This document shows positions 23,495 to 62,072 of a stretch of DNA of 64,000 nucleotides, piece by piece (position 1 is the stretch's first letter; every line of letters begins with the position of its first letter). The notes under the pieces were generated by a model. The model saw only the letters and a program-made list of their open reading frames with translations, was not told where the DNA came from and did not search any database. Made by a program: the position numbers and the translations under genes. Origin of the DNA: a virus; the IMG/VR virus record IMGVR_UViG_3300024999_000034, positions 62,001 through 126,000 of that record, one strand, 5' to 3'.

Positions 23495-24394
23495 ATGACA
23501 ACGGTCAATACACATGCATTATATGTTCAAAATCACAGAACAAATGATAATGGAATAGTAGAAAGAAGATGTACGAAATGCCAAGAATGGTTGGAAGAAA
23601 GCTATGACAATTATTACTATGTAAATAAAAAAGACGTAAATAAAAAATTTCTACCCGAATGTAGAAAATGTACCGTTAAAAGATCAAGTAAAAACCAAGC
23701 CGAAAATAAGGATAGAGCAAGTGCTACTCAAAAAGCATGGAAAGATGAGAGAAGAGATGAATTACACGATGCTTTTAGAGCATGGAAAAAATCAGTTATA
23801 GGACATATTAGACGGTATCAAAGAGGATACCAACAATCAAGCAAGGGTAAGAGTAAATATAAAGTATACGGTCTAAAAAGATATTTTGAAAAGAATCACG
23901 ATATTAGTTCTAAAGAGTGGATTGCTTGTAAAGACTATTTTAAAGATAAAGATGGTGATTGGAGTTGTGCCTACTGTGGATTAAAAATACAAGATCACTT
24001 AATAGATCGTGCAGGAAATTTGGTAAAGAGCGACTTTCATAAAGAACACAATAACGATAAGGGGTCAAACGATCTGAGTAATTGCATACCTAGTTGCGGA
24101 AGTTGTAATTACAAAAAGTGGTCATTTCCTTTCGAAGAATGGTATAGGAATTATGAATATTTTAACGAAGATAGATATGATAAAATAATTAAATGGATAG
24201 AGGAGGATTATAAATTTTATATTGAAGATAAACCACCATATCGTATTAGAAAAAAGAAGAATAAAGATAACAATAAATTTCATCATGAATTATGGACTGT
24301 TGACAAGTACAGAAATATGATAGAATGTATAGCAATAGCAGATAAAAAGAAAGACTTACATACATTTATTCAAAAATATTTTAATGTTGCATAA
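23495..24394 (+). CDS. HNH homing endonuclease with N-terminal zinc ribbon
   Basis: 299 residues. Cysteines 26, 29, 56 and 59 form a zinc ribbon. A basic helical linker follows. The HNH core has CAYC (158-161), FHKEH (181-185), N (about 192-196) and CIPSCGSC (197-204). The C-terminal ~90 residues bind DNA in relatives. The gene at 45180 is a clear paralogue. Inferred to be a free-standing mobile endonuclease. A long hairpin follows. The RBS is AAAGAGG, weaker than its neighbours. Confidence 0.8.
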   Translation: MTTVNTHALYVQNHRTNDNGIVERRCTKCQEWLEESYDNYYYVNKKDVNKKFLPECRKCTVKRSSKNQAENKDRASATQKAWKDERRDELHDAFRAWKKSVIGHIRRYQRGYQQSSKGKSKYKVYGLKRYFEKNHDISSKEWIACKDYFKDKDGDWSCAYCGLKIQDHLIDRAGNLVKSDFHKEHNNDKGSNDLSNCIPSCGSCNYKKWSFPFEEWYRNYEYFNEDRYDKIIKWIEEDYKFYIEDKPPYRIRKKKNKDNNKFHHELWTVDKYRNMIECIAIADKKKDLHTFIQKYFNVA

Positions 24395-24465: not shown

Positions 24466-24719
24466 ATGAATGAAAAAATTGCTATTCAAATAATCAAAAA
24501 CAATTATCCAGATAATTCAACTGTTTTTGGAGAAGCATTAGATTTAGCAATAAAAGCTTTAGAGAAACAAATACCTAAGAAACCAATAATGGAAAATGGA
24601 ATCCTGCTCGATGCCCTTCGTGTGATGAAGCATTGAGTGAAAGTGCAGGAGATGGTTATTATACACATTCTTATCATTTAAAGTTTTGTGAGTGTGGGCA
24701 AAAATTAGAGTGGAATTAA
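24466..24719 (+). pseudogene. Frameshifted zinc-ribbon protein
   Basis: The first frame (24466-24636) gives ALDLAIKALEKQIPKKP, a family hallmark, then runs into ILLDALRVMKH. A -1 shift near 24600 restores NPARCPSCDEALSES...FCECGQKLEWN, the zinc ribbon expected at the end of this common phage protein. A one-base deletion or a real frameshift explains it. The gene at 27054 ends in a similar ribbon. Confidence 0.65.
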
Positions 24720-27256: not shown

Positions 27257-27492
27257 ATGTTTATTGTATATGAGATTACAGCAACAGCCCATTTTGCTTT
27301 TTCAATGAACAAAAAGTAAGACATAGAGAATTAATTAGTGATAATATTTTTATCACAGATAAATTCTTAAAGGATTGGGAGCAAAGAGTTATTCAAGCAA
27401 CAAAAGATAATATGAGAGAAGTTTTAAAATTAACTGATTTTAAAATTGAAGAACTTGCTGTGTTGGAATCTTTAGAGGAATTAAGAAAGTGA
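27257..27492 (+). pseudogene. Frameshifted small gene (T-run)
   Basis: ATG 27257 follows GAGGAAGGATGAG and reads FIVYEITATAHFAF, then stops at 27317. From the five-T run at 27298-27302 the -1 frame continues FNEQKVRHRELISDNIFITD for about 65 residues to 27492. One missing T, a real mutation, or slippage on TTT explains it. Confidence 0.6.
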
Positions 27493-28998: not shown

Positions 28999-31103
28999 AT
29001 GAAAGACATTAAACTTTATCCACACAATCAAGAAACTTACGATAAGATCCAAACACTATGGAAAACTGAAAACAAAGTTTCAGCAGTTCAGGCCACCGGC
29101 ACAGGAAAATCATATCTGATACTAAAGTGTATCTATAATGATCCTGAAGCAAACAAGGTAGTTCTAGCACCTTCTAATTACATATTAGAGCAATTGATAA
29201 ATGAAGCAGGAGAAGAATTACCGAATACAAAAACTCTTACCTATTCTAAATTATCATATATGAGTGATACAGAAATAAAAGAGTTAAATATTGGATATAT
29301 TTTCCTTGATGAATTTCATAGATGCGGAGCAGAGCAATGGGGAGATGGAGTACAAAGATTATTAAATGCATTTCCAAATGCTAAAGTATTGGGAACATCT
29401 GCAACTCATATTAGATTTCTAGATAACGCAAGAAACATGGGAGAAGAATTATTCAATGGAAACATTGTTAATAATCTATCTCTTGCAGAAGCAATTGTAA
29501 AAAAGATATTACCTATGCCTAAATATATTTCTGCATTGTATACTTTTGACGATGAAGTTAATAATCTCAAAACGAAAGTAGAAAACAGTAAAAATGATGA
29601 AGAATCTAAAAAAGAAATGTTAAAAGAAATTGAAATAATGAAGAATAAATTAAACAAAAGCAAAGGCATTCCTAATATTCTAAAGAAACATTTGTCTAAA
29701 GACTATAGTGGAAAGTTTATTATTTTCTGTAAAGATAAAGTTCATTTGGATGAAATGAAAGAAACTGTTGTTGAATGGTTTATGAATGGTTTAAGCAATC
29801 AAAAGTCACAAAACAAGTAGATGTTTACACTATTTATAGTAATTATACAAATGGTGATATTGAAGTCAATGAATTTATAAATAATAAAAATCCTAAATCA
29901 ATTAAACTTTTATTTAGCATTGGAATGTTTAATGAAGGAATTCATATTGAGGACGTAACAGGGGTTATTTTATTAAGACCCACTACATCTCCTATTATTT
30001 ATTATCAACAAGTGGGTAGAGCTATGCAGGTTGGAAATGGTAATTCTCCCATTATATTTGATTTAGTAAATAATTTTAGTAATATGGGAGCAAAGAATTT
30101 TATTAGTGATTTGGAAAAACATGCCGAACGAGAGAATGATAAGCATAAAGATGATAGCGAAAATAATTGCATTGATGTTTCTGAATTTATTATTTTTGAT
30201 GAAATTATCGAAGCTACGGATTTGTTTACCACAATTGAAAATAATTTAATTGGAGATTGGGATGCGATGTATGAGGAAATAAAATATTTTTACAATGAAA
30301 ATGGGCATTGTAATGTTAATACAAAGACTGGTGGAAAATTAGGGAATTGGGTACATACACAGAGAAGGTGTTTTAAATTATTAGAACTAAAAGAAGAAAG
30401 AATTAAATTACTTAATGATATTAATTTTGCTTGGGAAATAAATGATAAAAATTGGTATGATAAAGCTTGGGAAGACACATTTAAATTATTATCAGAATAT
30501 TATAATATATATAATCATTTTCCGGCCAAAGGAGAGGTTTATAAGGAAAACATACTCGGAAATTGGATAATTCAACAGAGAAGATTCTTTAAACAAGGAG
30601 AATTGTCTTTTGATAAAGAAAATAAATTAAATTCCATAAATTTCATTTGGGATATGCACCAAGATAGACGAGAAGAAATAACTAATCGTATTTTAGATTT
30701 TAAACAAAAATATGGTCACTTAAATATTCCTGAAAATTATGTGATAAACGGTAATAAGTTGTTATCACAAGTATATGTCATAAGAAAAGGTTATAAAAAA
30801 GGTAATTTATCTAACGAAATAATTAATAAGTTAAATGGTGTTGGATTTGAATGGGATAATAAGGAACATCATAAAGATATATTTGAAAAATATCATCTAT
30901 ATAATGTTTTAAAAGAAAATAATACAGGTATTGTAGAGTTTTCTAAATTAATAGGAGTCCAGAGAACAAGTGTTGGGGCTTGGGTAAACAATAGAAGCGA
31001 TATACCTAAAAAATATATCTCTAAAATTTCCGAAATGTTTAATATTGAACCACAATTGCTTCAACCACAAAAAGGAGATAGATGTGTTAATAAAATAGCG
31101 TAA
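28999..31103 (+). pseudogene. Superfamily-2 helicase with HA repeats, split by an 11-bp duplication
   Basis: N-terminal frame (28999-29820): GTGKS (34-38), DEFH (104-107), TSAT (133-136). C-terminal frame (to 31103): motif VI QQVGRAMQVG, then three helicase-associated repeats (W...LG.W...QRR type) and an HTH-like tail. TGAATGGTTTA occurs twice in tandem at 29772-29793. Removing one copy joins the frames as VVEWFKQSKVT. As assembled, a full helicase cannot be made without a -1 shift. The downstream fragment has only an unsupported internal ATG at 29775. Confidence 0.85.
29772..29793 (+). repeat. 11-bp tandem duplication in the helicase gene
   Basis: Copy one 29772-29782, copy two 29783-29793, identical TGAATGGTTTA. 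The extra 11 bases change the reading frame; recombination or slippage could remove one copy and restore the gene. Confidence 0.9.
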
Positions 31104-31171
31104 ATTAAATTATCCCAATACAGCAAACCCTACTCCCACGCCACTTTCAAAATCTCAATACCCAATAAAAA

Positions 31172-31200
31172 TTGCATTTTAAATGATTATAAAATAATAT
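31172..31200 (+). promoter_or_regulatory. Possible promoter before the methyltransferase
   Basis: TTGCAT (31172-31177), 17 bases, TAATAT (31195-31200), 12 bases before ATG 31213. The transcript start would lie near or inside the ribosome site, so it is uncertain. Confidence 0.35.
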
Positions 31201-45179: not shown

Positions 45180-46088
45180 TTGGGATCAGTTAAACAGTAT
45201 GAAGTTGCTGAAAGAAAAAGATTAGAGAAATTGGAAAGGGAACATAAAATAATAAATGGGGTAGATTATAAATTCTGCAATAAACATCATATTCATTTTC
45301 CAGATGAGGATATTTGGTTCCCTTCTACTACTGAATATTTTTACAAATCACACAATAAAACTGATGGGTTATATCCTTATTGCAAACGATGTGGAGTTGT
45401 AAGAGCTGAAATATGGGCAAAAGAAAATCCTGAAAGAACTGTAATACTTACAAAAAGAAAAAGGACTTCTCCACGCAAAAGAGAATATAGTAGACTCGCT
45501 CATGCAAAAGCTCGTGAAAGTGGTTACTATGCAGAATATATGAGTAAACCAGAAGTTAAGGCGAGAAAATATGGTAGTAGGCATAGAGACCATGAGATAA
45601 GTGAAAAGGAATGGATATATTGTAAAGATTACTTTAAAGATAAAGATGGCGACTGGTGTTGTGCTTATTGTGGAATAAAAATAAAAAATCATTTTATTGT
45701 AATTAAAGGAGTTATTAAAAATAGTGATCTCCATAAAGAACACAAAGATGATAAGGGAGCTAATGACATAAGAAATTGCATACCAAGTTGTAGAGACTGT
45801 AACTCAAATAAATGGGCTTTTGATTTTGAAGAATGGTATAGAAAACAAAAGTTTTTCACCGATGAAAGATATAATAAAATAATTCAATGGTGTACTGAAG
45901 ATTATAAATTATACATAGAAAACAAACCTTTGTTTAAAATATACAAAAAGAAAAATGATATTGGTAGTAAGTTTCATTATGAGATTTGGGAATTAGACGA
46001 ATTGATGAATCGAGTTGGATGTATATCTACGGCAGACAAGAAAAAAGATTTAGTGGATGAATTGGAAAAATTAATTTTAAATACATAA
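45180..46088 (+). CDS. HNH homing endonuclease, paralogue of 23495
   Basis: 302 residues. N-terminal cysteines (C, CKRCG) form a zinc ribbon. The HNH core (CAYCG, DLHKEHKDDKG, N, CIPSCRDCN) aligns with the protein at 23495 over the last ~170 residues, including WIYCKDYFKDKDGDW. Different N-terminus, so the two probably recognise different DNA sites. AAAGGAGG precedes; its own terminator follows. Confidence 0.8.
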   Translation: MGSVKQYEVAERKRLEKLEREHKIINGVDYKFCNKHHIHFPDEDIWFPSTTEYFYKSHNKTDGLYPYCKRCGVVRAEIWAKENPERTVILTKRKRTSPRKREYSRLAHAKARESGYYAEYMSKPEVKARKYGSRHRDHEISEKEWIYCKDYFKDKDGDWCCAYCGIKIKNHFIVIKGVIKNSDLHKEHKDDKGANDIRNCIPSCRDCNSNKWAFDFEEWYRKQKFFTDERYNKIIQWCTEDYKLYIENKPLFKIYKKKNDIGSKFHYEIWELDELMNRVGCISTADKKKDLVDELEKLILNT

Positions 46089-53998: not shown

Positions 53999-55488
53999 AT
54001 TAACATTAAACAAATAAACAAAGAACAAGATAGAGAATTTTCCAAGATTCCAAATAAGCTTTTCTATACTAAAGATGAAGGAGAGAAAAGTATTTTAGAA
54101 AAATCAGACTTTAATGAAAAAGCATTATGCATTTTAGATTATCTATATATGGGAACTGATAGAAGAGGTATAATTAGATTTACAATTGAAAACATGATAA
54201 AACAATGTAGATTTAAAATAAGAACTGGAGAAAAAGAATCGGCATCTCAATTTAAAAAGATATTACATATGTTGCAAAGACAATCAATAATACAAATTCT
54301 ATCAGACAATGAAAATTTAACATATAGCCCACTGATAGAAAATTATAAACTAAAAGATTTAATTATGTGTTCTTTAATGATAGATTTGACCGAACAATTT
54401 GTTTTATTAGATGCAAAAGAGAAAGATAAAATATATGGATATGATGAAGAGAAAATAAATCATTTAAGACTTTTATTATATTATTGTTACTTGAAATGTA
54501 GAATACATAAACGTAAAAAAGGTGATGAATTAGTTAAGTCAGGAGGTAGGGCAGAAGTATCATATCCAACATTTGAAAGAATTAATAAAGATTTAGGTCT
54601 TACAGATGATACAATTGACAAATATAATAAGATTCTAGTTGCTTTAGATATGATAAGATATAAGTCAGCAGGAACTTGGTACTATAAGACAGATCCTAAT
54701 AAAATAGTAAGAGAAAGTGTTAATTTTTATGCTTTATTTACTGATGAAGAAAATACACAGCATCATTTAAAAGAAGGAATAAAATTCTTTAAGAATATGG
54801 AAAGAAATTCTGACAAAGTGTTTACAGGAAAAAAGGATTATAAAAATAATAATAAAGTGTTAAATGGTGAGCTTGGGTCTATTATTAAGAAAGAGAAGAA
54901 AGGCACTGCTACAGCAGAGGATATTATTAGAAAGAATCAGATTATATTTTCTATTACTGCCAATGAAGAGCAACATGGTATTCAAGCATTGCTAGATTCA
55001 AATCCTGATACATTACTTTCTGATATTTATAGTAGTTTTGGTAGTGAAAATAAAGCAGATAAATATTATGAATTAGAGGAGTCATTAGGATTACTTGACA
55101 CTGGTAAGGAGTTTGGTGTTGATTTTAAGTATTATAAATGGATAATGATGAATTATGATAAAGAAGAGCATGATAAATTTGTACATTGCGTTAATAATAA
55201 AAAGAAAGCTCAATTAACGAACGATGATATAATATATTTTGCCGATCTAAAACCACAAAAACATAAGGGATTTGGTCAAAAGATATAGAGGAAGTAACAG
55301 AGGAAAAGCCAGAACCATTTGATGATTGGTTTGAAGATGATGATAATTATGAATACGAAATGACAGAAGATGATATTCAAGCAATGCATGAGATAGAACA
55401 ATTAAATCGTGCTCAAATTCCAGATGATGTATTAAGAGAAATAGAAAGAATGGAAAATGACAACGAAGATGATGATTTATTTAGTTAA
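53999..55488 (+). pseudogene. Replication-initiator-like protein, frameshifted near its C-terminus
   Basis: The frame opens after TGA 53996 with no ATG for 50 codons; ATT 53999 lies 6 bases after AAAGGA. Residues 20-110 (FSKIPNKLFYT..., ALCILDYLYMGTDRRGIIRF, FKKILHMLQRQSIIQIL) resemble the winged-helix start of Rep/DnaD-type initiators. The main frame stops at 55288. In the -1 frame from the A4 run at 55278 an acidic tail (DIEEVTEEKPEPFDDWFEDD...) continues to 55488. One missing A or frameshifting explains it. Confidence 0.55.
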
Positions 55489-61845: not shown

Positions 61846-62072
61846 ATGGATAAGAAATATATATAGTAAAAGTAGTAGACGATAGTGATGAAACAATTTT
61901 AACATTACTTGATTTTGGAACAGTAAATTATTCATCAAAATTAATTAATGTTTGTAGTATTATTATGGATTCAAAAAACGTTAGTAAATTAAGAAAATGC
62001 AAATGCGTTTTGTCTGTTAGAGAAAGTAGATCAGGTAAGTGGTTGGATGGAATTAAAAAAGAAAGGGATTGA
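61846..62072 (+). pseudogene. Small gene frameshifted at a (TA)4 run
   Basis: ATG 61846 follows GAGGTGA and reads MDKKYI to TAG 61864. Removing one TA from the run at about 61858-61865 gives KYIVKVVDDSDETILTLLDF and an open frame to 62072. A second short-repeat frameshift in this part of the window. Confidence 0.6.

Follow-up and report, generated by a model that had tools for sequence, protein, structure and literature searches.

The locus lies on the plus strand of the window, by which we mean the whole 64,000-nt stretch analysed (positions 62001–126000 of a 180,838-base, or 180.8-kb, virus record), and comprises two long open frames that overlap by 45 nt (29775–29820). ORF A (28999–29820, 273 aa) begins at ATG 28999 downstream of the Shine-Dalgarno sequence AAGGAG (−8.5 kcal/mol); the open-reading-frame listing gives GTG 28987 as an alternative start. 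It encodes the ResIII/DEAD half of a helicase (PF04851, ResIII, 1.1e-14; PF00270, DEAD, 1.3e-8), with motifs I (ATGTGKS), II (DEFH) and III (SAT) followed by the start of Helicase_C, and its final 12 residues are read in the wrong frame. ORF B (29775–31103, 442 aa) carries the remaining part of Helicase_C with motifs V and VI, three helicase-associated (HA) repeats (PF03457, 4e-37, three copies) and a C-terminal helix-turn-helix (HTH). Its match to PF00271 (Helicase_C, 6.1e-7) spans only profile positions 39–109 of 110. HA repeats are thought to bind DNA. Motifs V and VI are missing from ORF A and motifs I–III from ORF B, and the break falls inside Helicase_C, the second RecA-like domain. The locus is one superfamily-2 (SF2) helicase gene with HA repeats, split into ORF A and ORF B.

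At the break, the 11-mer TGAATGGTTTA is present twice in exact tandem (29772–29793, plus strand; copies 29772–29782 and 29783–29793), as found by direct scan and by TRF, which reports a 100% match. The repeat itself creates the ATG at 29775 with which ORF B begins. A direct scan for exact two-copy tandems with a unit of at least 10 bp identified this pair as the only one in the window and detected no further example in 40 kb of flanking sequence, for a total of 104 kb of the record. Modelling the window as a second-order Markov sequence predicts about 0.08 chance tandems of unit 11 per 64 kb, or about 0.14 when longer units are counted too. By itself, the 11-bp repeat is only mildly improbable and is not strong evidence; its significance comes from comparison with relatives.

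The homologue set assembled by a wider, alignment-based search consists of 53 loci, 4 on viral contigs and 49 in bacteria. The choice of query mattered in both databases: a scan of bacterial genomes with ORF A as the sole query returned no loci, compared with 49 from the alignment-based scan, and a viral scan with ORF B alone gave no matches because the HA part diverges fast. A DNA search of the phage collection with the whole gene also yielded no match, and a protein search of that collection gave distant matches only. The nearest homologue, on IMG/VR contig 3300024999_000048 (L002), shares 92% protein identity over ORF A and has a single copy of the 11-mer, with one frame running through the site for 782 codons from stop to stop. 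All four viral homologues (L002, L003, L004 and L028) have one open frame of 744–801 codons spanning the site. In the 45 homologues in which both halves were matched, both lie within one ORF (45/45), and none of these is split at the break site. The second half was unmatched in the other 8 of the 53, of which 3 lie at contig ends (L043, L066 and L072) and 5 are distant (22–27% identity); in the latter the ORF continues for at least 380 codons. The two-copy string was found in no other record of the virus collection. Because the homologues are single-ORF and no other record has the two-copy form, the single-copy form is ancestral and the two-copy form a young duplication private to this record.

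The preliminary description, made from this DNA alone, had reported an exact 11-bp tandem duplication at 29772–29793, had placed the two helicase halves in different frames and had claimed that deleting one copy would rejoin them with no other change. The first two points hold, with motifs I–III in ORF A and motifs V–VI plus the HA repeats in ORF B. As for the third, when the helicase core is aligned at the DNA level with that of L002, the 11 bp is the sole gap that changes the frame without being compensated. In the comparison with homologues that it had suggested, the relatives proved to be single-copy and single-ORF, and no two-copy, two-protein homologue was found.

ORF A and ORF B are both long open frames, the latter beginning with the repeat-created ATG, so that they might be read as two separate working proteins. 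However, the break lies within Helicase_C rather than between domains, no homologue is split there, and the Shine-Dalgarno signal at 29775 is very weak (−1.2 kcal/mol, compared with a median of −8.4 kcal/mol for 58 other starts). We consider a working pair of proteins very improbable. Less probable still is recoding, in which ribosomes would change frame, or jump 11 nt from one copy to its identical neighbour, and so make the full protein. Each codon of the first copy does have an identical landing codon 11 nt downstream, and bypassing can occur in phages, T4 gene 60 being an example (PMC11194080). The 45-nt overlap, read by eye, nevertheless contains no slippery heptamer and its local fold shows no unusual, stable or stimulatory RNA structure (z-score 0.19); the feature is also not conserved in relatives. 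Loss of the helicase is the likely outcome.

Selective constraint is evident on both sides of the break. With L002 as the comparison, ORF A has a dN/dS of 0.09; the first 120 codons of ORF B have 0.22, similar to the 0.26–0.32 of the intact pairs L002 versus L003 and L004. Protein changes assigned to the window branch versus the other branch number 5 versus 8 in ORF A and 7 versus 4 in ORF B; many are ambiguous and cannot be assigned, and the changes are not clearly concentrated on the window branch. ORF B contains no stop in 442 codons. In neutral simulations it remained open in 9% of cases at 3% divergence and in 2% at 5% divergence, and interpolation gives an unconstrained ORF B a probability of about 5% of staying open by about 4% divergence. 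The break is either recent on this simulated divergence scale or not present in the real DNA.

Under the second of these possibilities, the duplication would be an artefact of sequencing or assembly, the true DNA having one copy and the other having been gained at a read or contig join in a generally imperfect consensus. Other genes in the window bear on this question. For genes matched at 55% identity or higher, 4 are split in the window and 0 in the relatives (44 gene matches). The reference here was two related contigs, one represented by the regions L016 and L024 and the other by L087 and L088. The three frameshifts outside the helicase, near 24591, near 27298 and at 55270–55290, are each a net 1 nt and lie in or beside short runs. 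The first splits a small gene at 24466–24719 into two frames, and its homologue in L087 is intact (89 aa). The second is a 1-nt frameshift in a T run of a small phage gene (27258–27492), whose homologue in L078/L087 is intact and 89% identical. The third affects 54149–55488, where a 379-aa ORF shifts frame after about 55270 and the L024 homologue is a single 452-aa ORF; this one is less certain because conservation is poor in the acidic C-terminal part. Together, the three, which the preliminary description had not noted, are compatible with general decay of the genome as well as with a flawed consensus, and they make either of these more likely.

Several observations weigh against the artefact: (i) The usual error is a one-base change in run length, unlike an exact 11-bp duplication. 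(ii) Run-length statistics of the window resemble those of its relatives, with no shortage of long runs of the kind that signals a long-read consensus, although these counts neither prove nor exclude errors. (iii) The 104 kb scanned holds no other exact tandem with a unit of 10 bp or longer. On balance we regard an artefact as unlikely, while granting it an appreciable chance, and favour a real mutation because an exact 11-bp duplication is atypical of single-base error.

The best reading is that the helicase gene was recently inactivated by a real mutation, an ordinary kind of event, and we consider this probable. The claim of a recent inactivation in the preliminary description is likewise supported by the single-copy, single-ORF homologues, the remaining open frame and the constraint on both sides. 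We infer that the DNA molecule itself, and not just its record, carries the duplication. The ancestral state was a continuous gene for an SF2 (ResIII/DEAD-like) DNA helicase with C-terminal HA repeats in a large, AT-rich phage. In this record, a single tandem duplication has affected an 11-bp segment within the second RecA-like domain. Its most likely cause is slippage of the strands during replication, although no clear microhomology pointing to slippage was seen at the unit borders. The resulting frameshift adds 12 foreign residues before a stop. The truncated product retains the ATP-binding motifs I–III but should be inactive because it has lost motifs V and VI along with the HA repeats, and ORF B is a remnant lacking a good start signal. 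No other helicase of the SF2/HA family that might substitute for it was found across the whole 180.8-kb record.

The surroundings of the break show further differences and similarities among relatives. Divergence is much faster in the HA-repeat region (30240–31100) than in the helicase core, and the number of repeats varies among relatives; in the window, the gene ends with an extra HTH_3 domain after the repeats. On the 3′ side of the helicase gene, a 61-bp stretch (31126–31186) shares 93% identity with the sequence that follows the L002 helicase and has a match in L078 as well. This similarity holds despite the diverged HA-repeat DNA in between, and the stretch may be a conserved element, intergenic or regulatory. 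Several related genes resembling endonuclease VII or HNH homing endonucleases occur throughout the record, with at least two in the window (23495–24394 and 45180–46088), and others are present in L090 (224–1135 and 8641–9498).

The preliminary description had also raised a reversible switch, in which slippage would add and remove the 11-mer and so toggle the helicase on and off in the phage population. A single perfect repeat unit is all that separates the two states, and reversion of a short insertion is known from phnE of E. coli K-12 (PMC6469041). Like any short tandem duplication, this one could in principle lose a copy by slippage. However, the frame is set by just two exact 11-bp copies, with no multi-copy tract prone to frequent changes in copy number; relatives have one-copy forms and no conserved contingency tract, and the two-copy form occurs in this record only. 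We consider such a switch improbable, and slightly more so a maintained one, with one- and two-copy molecules coexisting and the HA-repeat helicase alternately on and off. As a single two-copy event in one record, the duplication leaves the switch without positive support, and the reversion of phnE shows that such a change is possible, not that it has a function. If both states did coexist, a phage helicase would be switching by slippage, which would be unusual.

Read as a recent inactivation, the locus adds one new example of a common event, the frameshifting of a gene by a short tandem duplication. For annotation, ORF A and ORF B should be treated as one gene, and other split genes in this record, which has several frameshifts, should be treated with care.

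The locus can be compared with three known systems. The closest is the family of SF2 DEAD/DEAH-type helicases with HA (PF03457) repeats, represented by the four phage contigs and by bacterial genomes and plasmids, with which it shares the order of ResIII/DEAD and Helicase_C domains followed by HA repeats. The Walker A and DEAD-like motifs of the ResIII/DEAD domain are found in ORF A, and Helicase_C and the HA repeats in ORF B. The relatives L002–L004 have four or five HA repeats, whereas the window gene has three plus the HTH and a frameshift within Helicase_C. Both RecA-like domains lie in one continuous protein in all 45 comparable homologues but not here, and the locus is a disrupted, probably non-working member of this common family. 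The second is phnE, which is cryptic in E. coli K-12 through an 8-bp insertion and yields revertants by slippage (PMC6469041). There, as here, a short insertion frameshifts a gene that losing the extra bases restores; unlike the phage helicase, for which reversion is not in evidence, phnE was observed to revert under selection. The third is slipped-strand phase variation in repeat tracts, which resembles the present case in that repeat copy number determines the frame and differs in that here an 11-mer is present only twice, with no hypermutable tract and no lineage known to have both states.
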